A stretch of DNA of 64,000 nt, taken from positions 1 through 64,000 of the IMG/VR virus record IMGVR_UViG_3300007735_000784; one strand, written 5' to 3'. This document shows positions 32,241 to 36,864 of this stretch, piece after piece (the stretch's first letter is position 1; the number at the start of each line of letters is the position of its first letter). A program made the position numbers and the translations under genes. Source of the stretch: a virus. The notes under the pieces are model-generated. The model was not told the DNA's origin and did no database searches. It worked only from the letters and a program-made list of their open reading frames with translations.

Positions 32241-32373
32241 CCGCTAACGTTTTGCGTGTATAAGAAGTGGCGGAATTAAAGCATAAAATTAACTTGAAAG
32301 CAATGCAGTTGAATATAACACTAATGTTTCTAAATGGCACAAAACCCGCCATTTTTTATACACGCTGTTATGT
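32241..32373 (+). other. attC-like site 1
   Basis: Half-core CGCTAACG (32242-32249); arms GCGTGTATAAGAAGTGGCGG (32254-32273) and CCGCCATTTTTTATACACGC (32346-32365) pair nearly completely; terminal half-core GTTATGT (32367-32373). Total 133 bp, central loop about 70 nt. Confidence 0.8.
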
Positions 32374-32400
32374 GTATGTGGCGGTTTAAATAACGAAAAT

Positions 32401-32649
32401 ATGAAGATAAAAGCAATTTACATTAAGAACTTAAAAATGAGTGAAGGCAAAGTTGCTGCACAAGTGGCACACGCTGTTAAGAATTTAGGAATAACGCCAA
32501 CTGATTGTGATATAATAGTTTTAGGTGTTTCAACCACTAAGTTTAATGAATTAACAGCACAGCACGAATGTTACATTCAACGAGATAAAGGATTAACAGA
32601 AGTAGAAAGTGGTACAGCAACAGCAGCGGCTTGGATAGATGTTCCGTAG
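32401..32649 (+). CDS. PTH2-type peptidyl-tRNA hydrolase (cassette 1)
   Basis: 82 aa. Residues 12-27 (KMSEGKVAAQVAHAV) match the signature of the PTH2 family (Bit1-like peptidyl-tRNA hydrolase), with its K-x-x-x-Q-x-x-H core. Family members recycle stalled peptidyl-tRNAs; here the domain is short (usual length about 115 aa) but has the complete N-terminal active-site helix. It is carried as a gene cassette, starting about 28 bp after attC 1. Whether it still hydrolyses peptidyl-tRNA cannot be told. Confidence 0.7.
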   Translation: MKIKAIYIKNLKMSEGKVAAQVAHAVKNLGITPTDCDIIVLGVSTTKFNELTAQHECYIQRDKGLTEVESGTATAAAWIDVP

Positions 32650-32690
32650 CCATTACATGTAACGAACAAGTATTTTAGTAGTGCGATTAA
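32649..32690 (+). other. Degenerate attC half (remnant)
   Basis: GCCATTACATGTAACG (32649-32664) resembles a cassette 3' end and half-core and is partly complementary to the start of cassette 1 (GTTATGTG). No matching second arm is seen, so it is probably the left half of a deleted or fused attC. Confidence 0.45.
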
Positions 32691-32713
32691 TAGCAGAAAG
32701 TAACAATGAAACA

Positions 32714-32806
32714 AGAATAACGGGTTGCGGCTTTGCGAAGTTGCTTAAAACACATAATATGGAAAAATACAGATTGATACAATTTTGCAAAGCCGCTGTT
32801 AGCAGT
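32714..32806 (+). other. attC-like site 2
   Basis: Half-core AATAACG (32716-32722); arms GCGGCTTTGCGAAGTTGC (32727-32744) and GCAAAGCCGC (32787-32796) with flanking TTTT pair with small bulges; terminal half-core GTTAGCA (32798-32804). Confidence 0.75.
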
Positions 32807-32914
32807 AGGTTCGTACCTATTCGCTATTACTTAATAGAGTTTTTCTGTTGGGTAATTTGCGGAATTGATTTTTACAAAAATTATCAAAGGTTCTATAAAC
32901 GAACTTACCGCTAA
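32759..32914 (+). CDS. 51-aa single-TM protein (cassette 2), start inside attC 2
   Basis: The ATG at 32759 lies in the loop of attC 2, so residues 2-16 (EKYRLIQFCKAAVSS) are encoded by the attC right arm. A hydrophobic segment covers about residues 23-38 (YYLIEFFCWVICGIDF), followed by a basic aromatic tail. The stop TAA is in the next half-core CGCTAACG. Probable small membrane protein, function unknown. Confidence 0.5.
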   Translation: MEKYRLIQFCKAAVSSRFVPIRYYLIEFFCWVICGIDFYKNYQRFYKRTYR

Positions 32915-33041
32915 CGTTTTCGGGCTTTGTGTCCGTTGGCGAATTAAACCACAAATGTTAAATTAAAAACAAATATTGATTATGAGCAAAAAAGTTGAAT
33001 TGAAAGACAAAACCGCCAATGGCACAAAAACCGTGTTAGGC
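32906..33041 (+). other. attC-like site 3
   Basis: Half-core CCGCTAACG (32908-32916); arm around GGCTTTGTGTCCGTTGGCG (32924-32942) pairs with CGCCAATGGCACAAAAACCG (33014-33033); terminal half-core GTTAGGC (33035-33041), a perfect GTTRRRY. Confidence 0.8.
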
Positions 33042-33263
33042 GTAGGTTTTTATCGCTGTGGCCACTGTGGGCAACCGACAGATAAAGATGGTGAGCCGTT
33101 GGATTTAGAAGCGTGTAAAACATGGCAAGCAGATAAAGCAGAGTTAGTGCATGGAAATTGTTGCGTGCATGAACTACGCCAACGGCAGACAATTATAGTA
33201 ACGAGGGATATGGCTATTGATGCAGGAGATATGTCGCTGGAGGGTCAGGAGTGGGTTTGGTAA
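32982..33263 (+). CDS. Zinc-ribbon-like protein (cassette 3), start inside attC 3
   Basis: 93 aa. The ATG lies in the attC 3 loop, so residues 2-20 (SKKVELKDKTANGTKTVLG) are attC-encoded. YRCGHCGQPTD (about 25-35) supplies a CxxC knuckle, and later CC near residue 61 may complete a metal site. The C-terminal half is helical. No family was recognised. Confidence 0.6.
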   Translation: MSKKVELKDKTANGTKTVLGVGFYRCGHCGQPTDKDGEPLDLEACKTWQADKAELVHGNCCVHELRQRQTIIVTRDMAIDAGDMSLEGQEWVW

Positions 33264-33267
33264 ACTT

Positions 33268-33363
33268 ACGCCTAACGTTTTGCGTATATGAGAAGTGGCA
33301 CTTGTAGAATGTTGATGTTTAGCACAAATGTTTATGTGCAATTTCTTATATACGCTGTTATGT
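33268..33363 (+). other. attC-like site 4
   Basis: Half-core GCCTAACG (33270-33277), which fits RYYYAAC; arms GCGTATATGAGAAGTGGCAC and GTGCAATTTCTTATATACGC pair around a 40-nt loop; terminal half-core GTTATGT (33357-33363). Confidence 0.8.
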
Positions 33364-33465
33364 TCTCGTTGCGGTTTATTAACTAAAAACTTAAATCGAA
33401 TCACAGAAGTAGTATTTATTTTTTTGTGCGGTGGCAAAAATTAATTTGAAAAATTAAAAAGAATT

Positions 33466-34224
33466 ATGAGTAAGAATATAGAATTAGACAAGTTTTATAC
33501 ACCAAAAGAAACGGCAAGACAATGTATTGAATTGTTTTTTGAAACATTTACTGATACGACTGAAATAATTGAACCAAGCGCAGGAAATGGTAATTTCAGT
33601 TTACAAATACCAAACTGTATTGCTTATGATTTAGAACCCGAACACGAAAGTATAATAAGGCAAGATTTTCTTAAACTGGATTTACCTTACAAGAAAGGTA
33701 GAGCATTTATTGGAAACCCACCTTTCGGAGATAGAAACAATCTTGCGAGAAGTTTTTACAAACACGCTTGTAAAATGGGTGATATGATTGGTTTTATACT
33801 CCCAATAAGCCAACTCGAAAATAGTGATAGTTTATATCATTTTGACTTGATTAAAAGTGTTGATTTAGGTGTATTAGAATATAGTAATATGAAAGTACAT
33901 TGCTGTTTCAATTTGTACAAAAGACCAAAGAATGGTAAACTAAATAGTAAGCCTAAATTAAGTAGTGAATTATTTACAATACATAGAGACGACCAAGATG
34001 GTTATAATGAACTTGATTATGATTTATGTATATTTAGGCGAGGTGCAAGTAGTGGTAAAGAAAAATTTACTGACTTACATACACAAACATATAAGATTGT
34101 TGTAAATGATAAAACCAATGTTGAGTATGTTAGAAATACTATATTGAAATTTGATTGGCAGAATTACAAGAAACACCAATCAGCACCAAGTATTAGTAAA
34201 AATGATATTTATAGACTTTTTTAA
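33466..34224 (+). CDS. N6-adenine DNA methyltransferase (cassette 4)
   Basis: 252 aa. SAM-binding motif I EPSAGNGNFS (about residues 36-45) and catalytic motif IV GNPPFG (about 84-89) identify an m6A-type amino-methyltransferase with motif I before IV. The C-terminal part (about 130-252) would be the target-recognition region. It is smaller than restriction-associated methylases and has no nuclease partner, so it is probably a stand-alone protective methylase. It starts 103 bp after the attC 4 core, outside the attC. Confidence 0.85.
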   Translation: MSKNIELDKFYTPKETARQCIELFFETFTDTTEIIEPSAGNGNFSLQIPNCIAYDLEPEHESIIRQDFLKLDLPYKKGRAFIGNPPFGDRNNLARSFYKHACKMGDMIGFILPISQLENSDSLYHFDLIKSVDLGVLEYSNMKVHCCFNLYKRPKNGKLNSKPKLSSELFTIHRDDQDGYNELDYDLCIFRRGASSGKEKFTDLHTQTYKIVVNDKTNVEYVRNTILKFDWQNYKKHQSAPSISKNDIYRLF

Positions 34225-34297
34225 AAAGCGAGGGAAGAAAAAATAAATACGGTATGATACCACAAAACTATAATCGAAGCACAATTGTAGCAATGGA
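34225..34297 (+). other. Cassette 4 3' untranslated segment
   Basis: 73 bp between the methylase stop and attC 5; no gene or promoter seen. Its last 15 bases (GCAATGGAGCATAAC) are roughly complementary to the cassette start (GTTATGTTCTCGTTGC). Confidence 0.4.
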
Positions 34298-34392
34298 GCA
34301 TAACGTATGGTGCTATGAGAAGGTTTGCCTTGCAGAAATGTTCAAATTACCTAAAATGTTATTGGCAAACTTGCTTATAGCACGTGTTACAT
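34298..34392 (+). other. attC-like site 5
   Basis: Half-core AGCATAACG (34298-34304 region); arms GGTGCTATGAGAAGGTTTGCC and GGCAAACTTGCTTATAGCAC pair around a short loop; terminal half-core GTTACAT (34386-34392). Confidence 0.75.
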
Positions 34393-34435
34393 GCAGTTTT
34401 TGTGCGTTGGATTAGTAAAAAATTAAAAGTAAAAT

Positions 34436-35041
34436 ATGAAGAAAGTATTGAATTTATTTGCAGGAATTGGGGGCAACAGAAAACATTGGAAAGATGTAGA
34501 AGTAACCGCAATAGAATACAATGAGGAAATTGCCAATGTTTATAAGCAATTACATCCAAACGACAATGTTATCGTTGCTGATGCACACGAATATTTGACT
34601 AAACATTGGAGAGAGTTTGATTTTATATGGAGTAGCCCACCATGCCAAAGCCACAGCAAAGTTAGAATGATGGCAAGTAAAGGTGGAAGTTATGATGCTG
34701 TAATGCCTGATATGAGATTGTGGGCTGAAATAATCTTTTTGCAGAACTTTACAAAGAATACGGATATAAAGTTTGTGGTTGAAAATGTAAAACCATACTA
34801 CGAACCATTTGTAAAACCAACAACAAAACTTGGTAGGCACTTATTTTGGGCAAACTTTGAAATACCACAAACTGAAATTAAAGACGGACTTACACACAAT
34901 GAAAGAGGAAGTTCTGAAAAAGGTTATTTCGATTTGCGACCATATAAAATGGAACACAGGAAAGACCAGATTATTCGTAATTGCGTTGACCCCAATGTCG
35001 GAGATTACGTTCTTCGGTGTGCGTTGGGAAATTGCACATAA
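34436..35041 (+). CDS. C5-cytosine DNA methyltransferase, short (cassette 5)
   Basis: 201 aa. Motif I NLFAGIGGNRKHW (about 6-18), catalytic motif IV WSSPPCQSHSK (about 64-74) with the PCQ cysteine, and motif VI VVENVKPYY (about 113-121) are clear. Typical Dcm enzymes exceed 300 aa; here the target-recognition region and motifs IX-X are reduced or missing. The last residues (GNCT) and the stop are encoded by the cassette end entering attC 6. It may be a minimal enzyme or be truncated. Confidence 0.8.
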   Translation: MKKVLNLFAGIGGNRKHWKDVEVTAIEYNEEIANVYKQLHPNDNVIVADAHEYLTKHWREFDFIWSSPPCQSHSKVRMMASKGGSYDAVMPDMRLWAEIIFLQNFTKNTDIKFVVENVKPYYEPFVKPTTKLGRHLFWANFEIPQTEIKDGLTHNERGSSEKGYFDLRPYKMEHRKDQIIRNCVDPNVGDYVLRCALGNCT

Positions 35042-35101
35042 CGAACAGGGCTATACGCTCGGTTTGTTTTTCACAAACTGGCGTTATAGCCCATGTTACC
35101 T
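35036..35101 (+). other. attC-like site 6 (short form)
   Basis: Half-core CATAACG (35036-35042); arms GGGCTATACGCTCGGTTTGT (35048-35067) and ACAAACTGGCGTTATAGCCC (35073-35092) pair almost fully around a 5-nt loop; terminal half-core GTTACCT (35095-35101). About 66 bp. Confidence 0.85.
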
Positions 35102-35158
35102 GTCTGGTTTGTTTTTAATTTTTGTGGAAAGGAAGTCACGCTTAAACGTATAATAGAT

Positions 35159-35509
35159 ATGAAAACTAACAAAGAAGAAAAAGAATACATAGAAAAATGC
35201 CTTGATGCCTACCAAAATGGAGGTGTGCTGTGGCTTATTGAAAGGACTGATACAAATGAGTTCTGCTATAAAGAATTGAAGATGTGGCAAAGCAATAAGC
35301 CCGAAACGTGGAGAGATACATTATTGTGGTCAAAAGACATTTCATTTTTCCATGTATTCTTTTTAACCAAAGAAGATGCTGAAAAGGAATTGCAAGAAAA
35401 TATGTTTATGCAATTTACAGAAGGAGGTTGCCCTTGTTGTGGACACGGCTCAACTGAAATACCAATTGCAATTACTGAACACGAATTTGTGCGGATGGGG
35501 AAAAAATAA
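35159..35509 (+). CDS. Hypothetical protein with CPCCGHG motif (cassette 6)
   Basis: 116 aa from ATG 35159 (the frame is open upstream to 35093 but those 22 residues lie in attC and the intergenic start). The C-terminal GGCPCCGHGSTE has a CxCC-x-H metal-site look. The middle has YKELKMWQSNKPETW. No family recognised. Confidence 0.55.
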   Translation: MKTNKEEKEYIEKCLDAYQNGGVLWLIERTDTNEFCYKELKMWQSNKPETWRDTLLWSKDISFFHVFFLTKEDAEKELQENMFMQFTEGGCPCCGHGSTEIPIAITEHEFVRMGKK

Positions 35510-35520
35510 AAACAAACTTG

Positions 35521-35633
35521 CAGGTAACGGTTCGGGTATTGCCGTTCGCTGTGTTCACAAATTAGATGCGTTCATGATTCGTGAACAGATGAAAATAATG
35601 AACAGCCACAATGACGGTAATACCATGTTATAA
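35521..35633 (+). other. attC-like site 7
   Basis: Half-core CAGGTAACG (35521-35529); arms GGGTATTGCCGTTCGCTGTG and CACAATGACGGTAATACC pair, with additional GTTCA/TGAAC pairing inside; terminal half-core GTTATAA (35627-35633). Confidence 0.75.
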
Positions 35634-35738
35634 GATGGAGGTGGCGAGAAAAAAGGTTTGTAGTATCGGTTGGAAATCTGAAACCTTGAAATACCCATTA
35701 AGCTCGACAGTAGCCAACCATAGCCACCTCTTTCTTAT
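35627..35738 (+). other. Cassette 7: no convincing gene
   Basis: The shortest cassette body. Its ends, GTTATAAGATGGAGGTGGC (35627-35645) and GCCACCTCTTTCTTATAAC (about 35723-35741), are 17/19 complementary. Internal GGTTGG/CCAACC and GGTTT/AAACC pairs allow an extended folded RNA. The only ORF is on the minus strand (65-70 aa, hydrophobic) and would run out of the cassette into attC 8, so it is not called. Possible structured non-coding RNA or regulatory cassette. Confidence 0.5.
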
Positions 35739-35853
35739 AACGTTGGGTATTGGCGTTGTTGCCTCACAAATGTTTAATTGAAATACTAAATTTAATATTA
35801 TGAAAAAAGATAAATTGAAACACGAAAGCAATAACGCCAATGTGCTGTTATGT
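35735..35853 (+). other. attC-like site 8
   Basis: Half-core TATAACG (35736-35742); arms GGGTATTGGCGTTGTTGC and GCAATAACGCCAATGTGC pair; terminal half-core GTTATGT (35847-35853). Confidence 0.75.
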
Positions 35854-36066
35854 GCTGATAATTTTACGGGTTACTTCGATGATGCTAACAAACCAATTTT
35901 TGTTGGTGATAAATTGAAAAGCGAATGGAACTATGAAGTTATTGTTGTAAAAGACGAAGATGGTGATTACAGTGGAAAATTGGTTTGTGATAATAACCAT
36001 AGTTGCAAAAACATTCCTTATGCTTTAAATAAAGGTAAAGGTTATAGTAAAATTATTTGCACATAA
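35800..36066 (+). CDS. YopX-like small protein (cassette 8), start inside attC 8
   Basis: 88 aa. The ATG is in the attC 8 loop, so residues 2-19 (KKDKLKHESNNANVLLCA) are attC-encoded. Residues 22-45 (FTGYFDDANKPIFVGDKLKS) followed by YEVIVVKDEDGDY weakly match the fold pattern of phage YopX proteins. The stop TAA is in the next half-core CATAACG. YopX assignment is tentative. Confidence 0.5.
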   Translation: MKKDKLKHESNNANVLLCADNFTGYFDDANKPIFVGDKLKSEWNYEVIVVKDEDGDYSGKLVCDNNHSCKNIPYALNKGKGYSKIICT

Positions 36067-36184
36067 CGTATGGGTATTGGCGAAGTTGCCGAACCGAAAG
36101 CTAAATTGAAAAACAAAAGTTGAAATTATGGACGAAAGTTTAATTGAAAAACAGAACGGCAATTTTGCCAATACCGTGTTAGGT
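36062..36184 (+). other. attC-like site 9
   Basis: Half-core ACATAACG (36061-36068); arms GGTATTGGCGAAGTTGCCG (36073-36091) and CGGCAATTTTGCCAATACC (36157-36175) pair with one bulge; terminal half-core GTTAGGT (36178-36184), a perfect GTTRRRY. Confidence 0.85.
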
Positions 36185-36811
36185 GCAGTGCCTTCTGTGG
36201 TGTATAATGAGGATTGTGTAGAGGCTTTAAAACGCTTTGACGATAACTACTTTGATATTGCTATTGTAGACCCACCTTATGGGCTTGGGAATAGATTAAG
36301 CGATGGAGGTGGCAAGCTAAAAAATACTCCTATGGCTGTGCTTTACAGAGATAAAGATTGGGATGTATTACCAACAGCCGAATATTGGGAGCAGTTGTTT
36401 AGAGTAAGCAAAAATCAAATGGTTTTTGGGGCTAATTACTTTCTTGAATATTTGCCGAGCAGTAGAGGTATAATTTGTTGGGATAAAAAACAAGATATGC
36501 CAACGCTTTCGGCTTGGGAATTAGTTTGGACATCATTTGATAAGCCGAGCAAAATATACAAGAAAGTAAGCACAGATTTAGACCGCTTTCATCCAACCCA
36601 AAAACCTATTGGCGTTTATGATTTTTGCTTACATTTTGCAAAAGCACAGCCACAAATGAAAATGCTTGACACCCACGTTGGAAGTGGAAGTAGCAGAATA
36701 GCTGCCCATAAGATGGGGCTACAATACACAGGATTTGAAATTGATACAGAATATTATGAGAAACAAGAAAAGCGTTTTAAAGACTTCAAATCACAATTAC
36801 GGTTGTTTTAG
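36128..36811 (+). CDS. Amino-DNA methyltransferase, DPPY type (cassette 9), start inside attC 9
   Basis: 227 aa. Catalytic motif IV VDPPYG (about residues 54-59) precedes RFHPTQKPIGVYDF and motif I LDTHVGSGSSRIAAHKMG (about 181-198), so the order is IV...I as in beta-type N6-adenine/N4-cytosine methylases (PF01555-like). Residues 2-22 (DESLIEKQNGNFANTVLGA) are encoded by the attC 9 right arm. No restriction partner is present. The gene ends a few bases before a truncated final half-core at 36831. Confidence 0.85.
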   Translation: MDESLIEKQNGNFANTVLGAVPSVVYNEDCVEALKRFDDNYFDIAIVDPPYGLGNRLSDGGGKLKNTPMAVLYRDKDWDVLPTAEYWEQLFRVSKNQMVFGANYFLEYLPSSRGIICWDKKQDMPTLSAWELVWTSFDKPSKIYKKVSTDLDRFHPTQKPIGVYDFCLHFAKAQPQMKMLDTHVGSGSSRIAAHKMGLQYTGFEIDTEYYEKQEKRFKDFKSQLRLF

Positions 36812-36821
36812 CGGTGTCGGT

Positions 36822-36836
36822 GGCATTGCACCTAAC
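36822..36836 (+). other. Truncated final half-core (right edge of the array)
   Basis: GGCATTGCACCTAAC is complementary to the start of cassette 9 (GTTAGGTGCAGTGCC, 36178-36192) with one mismatch. No second arm or GTT half-core follows; ordinary phage sequence resumes. The last attC is therefore lost. Confidence 0.65.
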
Positions 36837-36864
36837 TACTGTATATAAGCAATAAAACTAAAGC

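Follow-up and report, generated by a model that had tools for sequence, protein, structure and literature searches.

Integrons are usually regarded as bacterial tools for resistance and, lately, for phage defence. A sedentary chromosomal integron combines the integrase IntI, an attI site and an array of cassettes in which an open reading frame (ORF) is followed by its attC site. According to IntegronFinder 2.0, an extra domain distinguishes IntI, and Bacteroidetes proper contain one complete integron, in Salinibacter. Clusters of attC sites lacking integron integrases (CALINs) have been described in virulent phages, Polaribacter phage P12002L among them, and IntI1 was able to recombine five of the six phage sites tested there into attI1 (Qi et al. 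2023, PMC9892861). Here, we analyse an array of this kind in a 64,000-nucleotide (nt) stretch of viral DNA (the window), which spans positions 1-64000 of IMG/VR record IMGVR_UViG_3300007735_000784, 71,237 bases in total. Like the phage CALINs of Qi et al., it is a series of attC sites without an integrase that carries methyltransferase cargo. In contrast to them, it has nine sites docked at an attI-like site, its genes are reversed relative to attC, near-identical phages carrying such arrays differ precisely, and its partner enzyme is probably not an IntI. With a sedentary integron it shares attI, the R and L boxes of attC, the cassette units and the G|TT junction (the bar marks the recombination point), but the phage array lacks an integrase and its genes are reversed, and the corresponding recombinase in Bacteroidia chromosomes lacks the IntI-specific segment. 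We consider it highly probable that this is an integrase-less cassette array, docked at an attI-like site and exchanged by a host tyrosine recombinase.

The sites were scored with a covariance model (CM R1) built from 35 bacterial chromosomal array sites, phage sequence excluded; these chromosomal sites had been found with a scanner designed on the window, and site discovery was therefore not blind. As a preliminary description had proposed from the letters alone, nine attC-like sites lie in the same direction within 32242-36184, each with a 5′ TAACG, a long imperfect inverted repeat and a 3′ GTTR:

32242-32373, + strand: attC 1, left array end, directly after phage ORF 32021-32239; CM R1 E=1.7e-20
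32715-32804, + strand: attC 2; CM R1 E=6.9e-11
32909-33041, + strand: attC 3; CM R1 E=1.9e-17
33270-33363, + strand: attC 4; CM R1 E=7.6e-11
34298-34392, + strand: attC 5; CM R1 E=1.3e-8
35036-35101, + strand: attC 6, short form; found by scanner and DNA folding (z=-7.2), not by CM R1
35522-35633, + strand: attC 7; CM R1 E=0.014
35735-35853, + strand: attC 8; CM R1 E=5.2e-11
36061-36184, + strand: attC 9; CM R1 E=4.1e-14

This host-derived model recovers eight of the nine, all on the + strand (E 1.7e-20 to 0.014), and finds nothing below E=1 elsewhere in the 64 kb (best off-array place, E=3.5), so the covariance-model check suggested at the outset came out in favour of the sites. The exception, attC 6, is a 66-nt form that CM R1 misses yet that folds well. 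In related arrays the model detects dozens of sites, and in the examined stretches of eight other sister phages (L003, L005, L017, L028, L046, L051, L052 and L081) it detects none; the geometry scanner gave zero matches at its working threshold in 12 shuffled windows. As single-stranded DNA every site folds better than shuffled sequence, and in eight of the nine the + strand folds better than the - strand. The RYYYAAC and GTTRRRY boxes, inverted L arms and unpaired spacers (5 nt and 1-3 nt) of attC are all present, most R boxes matching in part. The L″ arm, where extrahelical bases select the strand in attC, has two conserved G.T / A.C mismatches in their place. Rfam returned no meaningful family, either at the gathering threshold or at E<=10. 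In addition, a degenerate half-site (TGTAACG, 32657-32715), perhaps a decayed tenth site, closes the first cassette about 55 nt 5′ of attC 2.

The stretches between sites behave as cassettes. The sequence after the GTT of one site is complementary to that before the AAC of the next, the other end of the same cassette: in the window 8.4 of 11 positions pair, compared with 5.1 for permuted partners (0 of 20,000 permutations as good), and the values are 8.7 and 4.9 for 58 phage cassettes and 8.7 and 4.8 for 21 chromosomal ones. No such excess of pairing over chance is seen when the two stretches flank a single site. Such matched ends would be the expected outcome of circular cassettes recombining at G|TT.

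Entire cassettes, cut precisely at AA|C, distinguish phages of 99-100% identity; the change often lies at the right array end, at a site like bacterial attI. In a sister group whose primase is about 62% identical to that of the window, the arrays occupy one common locus. Two of these phages (L087 and L104) have three cassettes each; L086 has the same cassettes at 99.8-100% identity plus one extra of 190 bp, and L090 has them at 100% identity plus two cassettes, 824 and 821 bp long, that encode methyltransferases. All of the added cassettes open at CACTAA|C and close before the common flank CTACTCGACTTGCG, which about ten different cassettes adjoin in different contigs. In contigs L302 and L303 the distal cassette of 311 bp is exactly the same, and the sequences diverge afterwards. 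The same holds for cultured Flavobacterium phages, of which hemulen6-1 and filifjonk9-1 both have about ten sites, which share the strand of the genes. The sequences of snork6-2 and snork6-1 match at 100.0% identity for 5,381 nt, as far as TTGCTTATAAC; there, one additional cassette of 342 bp in snork6-1 precedes the flank TACAATATTACATG that both phages share. Between hemulen6-1 and stinky9-1 the difference is exactly two cassettes (1,181 bp), with flanks at 99.7% and 100% identity, and between lillamy9-6 and morran9-1 it is 794 bp with the same kind of junction. The hemulen, stinky, snork, lillamy, morran and filifjonk phages are published isolates from a study whose main text makes no reference to integrons or attC (Nilsson et al. 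2020, PMC7077304). The presence of this array type in cultured, sequenced phages excludes, for the class, the objection that it arose by chimeric assembly. Together, the site model, the correlated cassette ends and the whole-cassette differences support the initial proposal of an integron-like array inside a phage genome, and the phages appear, on genome comparison, to draw on a shared cassette library.

The array lies between phage ORFs 32021-32239 and 36865-37092, directly 5′ of the primase-helicase gene, in a window that also encodes terminase, portal, structural proteins and a RecE-like exonuclease. The terminase is distantly related to those of Cellulophaga and Flavobacterium phages (about 25% identity), and a tailed phage of Bacteroidia is the best explanation of the carrier. 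A CALIN has at least two attC sites close together and no integrase nearby; here nine sites, by the model built in this analysis, fall within 4 kb, and a search for tyrosine integrases (PF00589) gave no match anywhere in the 71,237-base record, extending to the whole record the earlier statement that the window lacks one. A complete integron has attI beside its integrase gene, and the phage has an attI-like docking core alone, without an integrase.

The polarity of the array is not that of an ordinary integron: the genes run backwards relative to attC. In the cleaved box of classical attC sites, AAC is followed by G (Bouvier 2009, PMC2727003); the phage AACG stands at the gene-stop side, the reverse of the usual. 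Each phage gene starts at or inside its own attC, whereas in Bacteroidia chromosomes the same sites end each gene: the ratio of reversed to canonical polarity is 65:8 in phage loci and 1:29 in chromosomal loci (Fisher p=3e-17), and 18:0 in phage-type contigs binned with genomes. The eight canonical phage sites mostly depend on ORFs of 45-60 amino acids (aa), which probably arose by chance. Reading the phage array as ordinary gene-then-attC units was rejected, since the array opens with an attC and ends in a bare AAC; that reading is also contradicted by start codons inside attC and by the opposite direction of the chromosomal loci. Among the binned contigs, one of 44 kb with a phage-type array (L196 and L270-L271, genome G006) is assigned to a metagenome-assembled genome (MAG) of the archaeon Candidatus Nitrosotalea and is probably a misbinned phage contig.

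The right end of the array was correctly placed at 36836: the last cassette terminates in GGCATTGCACCTAAC, whose AAC is 36834-36836. Read on the other strand, this end resembles attI:

36834-36853, - strand: attI-like docking site, ATTGCTTATATACAGTA|GTT, at the right array end; its chromosomal attI matrix score exceeds that of 99.4% of GTTR sites

The matrix was derived from 17 chromosomal attI sites, its scores being ranked against GTTR sites, and the window site may also be written TTATATACAGTA|GTT on the - strand. Sites like GCGTATATTTACTA|GTT open the phage arrays when these are read on the canonical strand, and 16 of the 18 docking sites scored in phages lie in the top 7%.

Chromosomal counterparts came from a pattern search, which found the same attC type in Bacteroidota genomes; the sampled genomes are taken here, by an assignment of our own, to belong to class Bacteroidia. 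A MAG of Crocinitomicaceae (L257) has a tyrosine recombinase, P0001, followed by an array whose genes end at attC, as in ordinary integrons. Relatives of P0001 occur in 143 of 295 genomes of the class (E<=1e-50), and loci with recombinase, attI and attC arrays are L257, L279, L281, L282, L289, L295 and L297. The arrays, of up to seven sites in a single orientation, lie downstream of the recombinase and attI. A conserved TATAWANWAG|TTRR, where the first cassette begins, follows the recombinase stop by about 100 nt in 17 of 20 loci; contigs L283 and L285 terminate at or shortly past it. Many P0001-type genes are found at contig ends, with their 3′ end toward the break. P0001 and its relatives score 195-210 bits with the integron-integrase model TIGR02249 (cut-off 265), and between aligned blocks P0001 has about 26 residues as opposed to about 68 in IntI4 (2A3V), about 42 fewer; these recombinases thus lack the extra domain that characterizes IntI and fall below its cut-off. 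They resemble NCBIfam NF040815 recomb_XerA_Arch ('site-specific tyrosine recombinase/integron integrase'), with 208-234 bits against a cut-off of 220; the name of that family comes from sequence, and we found no report of attI/attC arrays beside NF040815-type recombinases in the open-licence literature.

The phage cassettes carry the following genes:

32401-32649, + strand: peptidyl-tRNA hydrolase, PTH2-like; Pfam PF01981, E=1.2e-6
32759-32914, + strand: ORF of 51 aa, ATG within attC 2; 81% identity over 42 aa to a relative in sister phage L031
32982-33263, + strand: ORF, start within attC 3, no assigned function
33466-34224, + strand: ORF, probable adenine methyltransferase; NPPFG motif by eye, no Pfam match
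34436-35041, + strand: C5-cytosine DNA methyltransferase; Pfam PF00145, E=2e-11
35159-35509, + strand: ORF, no assigned function
35627-35741, + strand: cassette without a long ORF, holding a structured, pseudoknotted RNA; fold z=-4.6, covariation 0 of 500 shuffles
35800-36066, + strand: ORF, start within attC 8, no assigned function
36128-36811, + strand: N6/N4 DNA methyltransferase, start within attC 9; Pfam PF01555, E=4.1e-10

One C5 and one N6/N4 methyltransferase are thus recognized by Pfam, with a probable third. Among 83 distinct phage cassette proteins we count 13 N6/N4 and 9 C5 methyltransferases, two Mom, two D12 and one Tad3 (a Thoeris inhibitor), so that DNA methyltransferases or other anti-restriction proteins make up about a third; the DNA-modifying cassette genes probably protect the phage. 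An ATG lies within attC in 26 of 113 phage cassettes, and attC is therefore able to supply a translation start. In the reversed arrangement, a leader from attC would travel with its gene when the cassette moves. Lipoprotein-like signal peptides (for example MSNRKTNGFFAYVLLAVVLSSCGEE) are encoded across the attC junction in L015 (1657-1920) and L099; recombination at GTT would therefore split them.

The RNA cassette forms two interleaved helices, with 95.8% of cells paired in the covariation analysis. Its core is common to 23 viral contigs (L309-L331), in seven of which the RNA lies inside the attC loop, and recurs in KVP40-like Vibrio phages (L299, KVP40) within a tRNA gene cluster. It has no counterpart in Rfam 15, and the idea that it is a tRNA was rejected, as a tRNA search found none.

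In the mechanism that we propose, a cassette unit is an attC plus a gene reversed, in comparison with canonical cassettes, relative to attC polarity. The reversal makes gene and phage transcription co-directional and places attC at the translation start, or has it supply that start. During infection, a host tyrosine recombinase would insert and excise cassettes on a folded single strand, at the G|TT of the - strand, that is, the AA|C of the + strand. The most likely enzyme would be the family found beside the same attC type in Bacteroidia chromosomes, without the IntI-specific domain; the preliminary description had foreseen a host integron integrase, but the likely host enzyme is not a classical IntI. 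The phage population would thereby have access to a common pool in which DNA methyltransferases and other anti-restriction genes are abundant. Comparison establishes the sites, the unit character of cassettes and their exact gain or loss, as well as the polarity, the docking site and the partner locus in chromosomes, and we infer the acting enzyme, the folded + strand as substrate and the defeat of restriction by the cargo. Several points weigh against this account. The case for exchange is comparative, and each near-identical pair fits either gain or loss. The partner enzyme is suggested by gene neighbourhood, and the recombinase lacks a domain held necessary for folded-strand recombination by IntI. 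G.T mismatches stand where clear extrahelical bases would be expected; the docking sites of L101 and the L015 group are not strongly attI-like (their scores are reached by 12% and 20% of random GTTR sites); and the sister group, when searched, yielded no empty docking site.

The enzyme might instead be a classical IntI from a rarer host or a mobile integron, the Bacteroidia recombinase not acting on the phage. In one genome with nif genes and an IntI above cut-off (L251), same-type sites lie within 7 kb of that true IntI, and IntI1 acts in E. coli on phage attC sites, one of P12002L included, to recombine them (Qi et al. 2023, PMC9892861). By the model of this analysis, P12002L has just two sites, both weak. 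However, true IntI above cut-off occurs in 105 of 395 genomes across the phylum and in 1 of 395 of the class, where relatives of P0001 are widespread (143 of 295) and directly precede attI and arrays, and we regard this alternative as improbable. Homologous recombination between repeated attC arms, for example by the phage RecE-like exonuclease, would likewise yield whole-cassette differences without a site-specific recombinase, and the arms are alike between some sites. Exchange within arms would not, however, preserve matched cassette ends, which match beyond the arms where within-site partners do not, and the gains at the docking site have unrelated arms and an exact AA|C junction; this makes it very unlikely. 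That the hairpins are RNA elements of transcription or translation, attC only in appearance, would accord with the better folding of the + strand, the start codons inside 26 of 113 sites and the structured RNA filling the loop of some sites. It would leave the paired cassette ends and exact whole-cassette differences unexplained, and the same sites stand beside a recombinase and attI in chromosomes with genes running the opposite way; we strongly disfavour it, to the point of finding it scarcely credible.

Phage CALINs have been known since 2023, so the earlier suggestion that a phage can carry cassettes is supported but not new. The reversed polarity, attI-like docking, turnover between isolates and non-IntI partner appear to be new; we found no earlier report of them, or of the Bacteroidia partner family, in the open-licence literature. 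On balance we lean towards a broader view, in which Bacteroidia own a separate integron class, its recombinase lacking the IntI-specific domain, and phages have evolved a dedicated pool of reversed cassettes whose attC doubles as a translation start, with the host enzyme shuffling them at an attI-like site as a shared anti-restriction library. Such Bacteroidia integrons may have been missed because detectors require the IntI domain. Nilsson et al. 2020 (PMC7077304) reported that one methyltransferase is missing from LMO9 phages that plate poorly on strain LMO6, and hemulen and snork have a methyltransferase cassette that stinky, lillamy and morran lack; cassette content may therefore help to explain host range. 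The same exchange system as in bacterial integrons appears to work for phages too, carrying genes that could overcome restriction by the host, and the presence of arrays in cultured Flavobacterium phages and hosts makes exchange directly testable.

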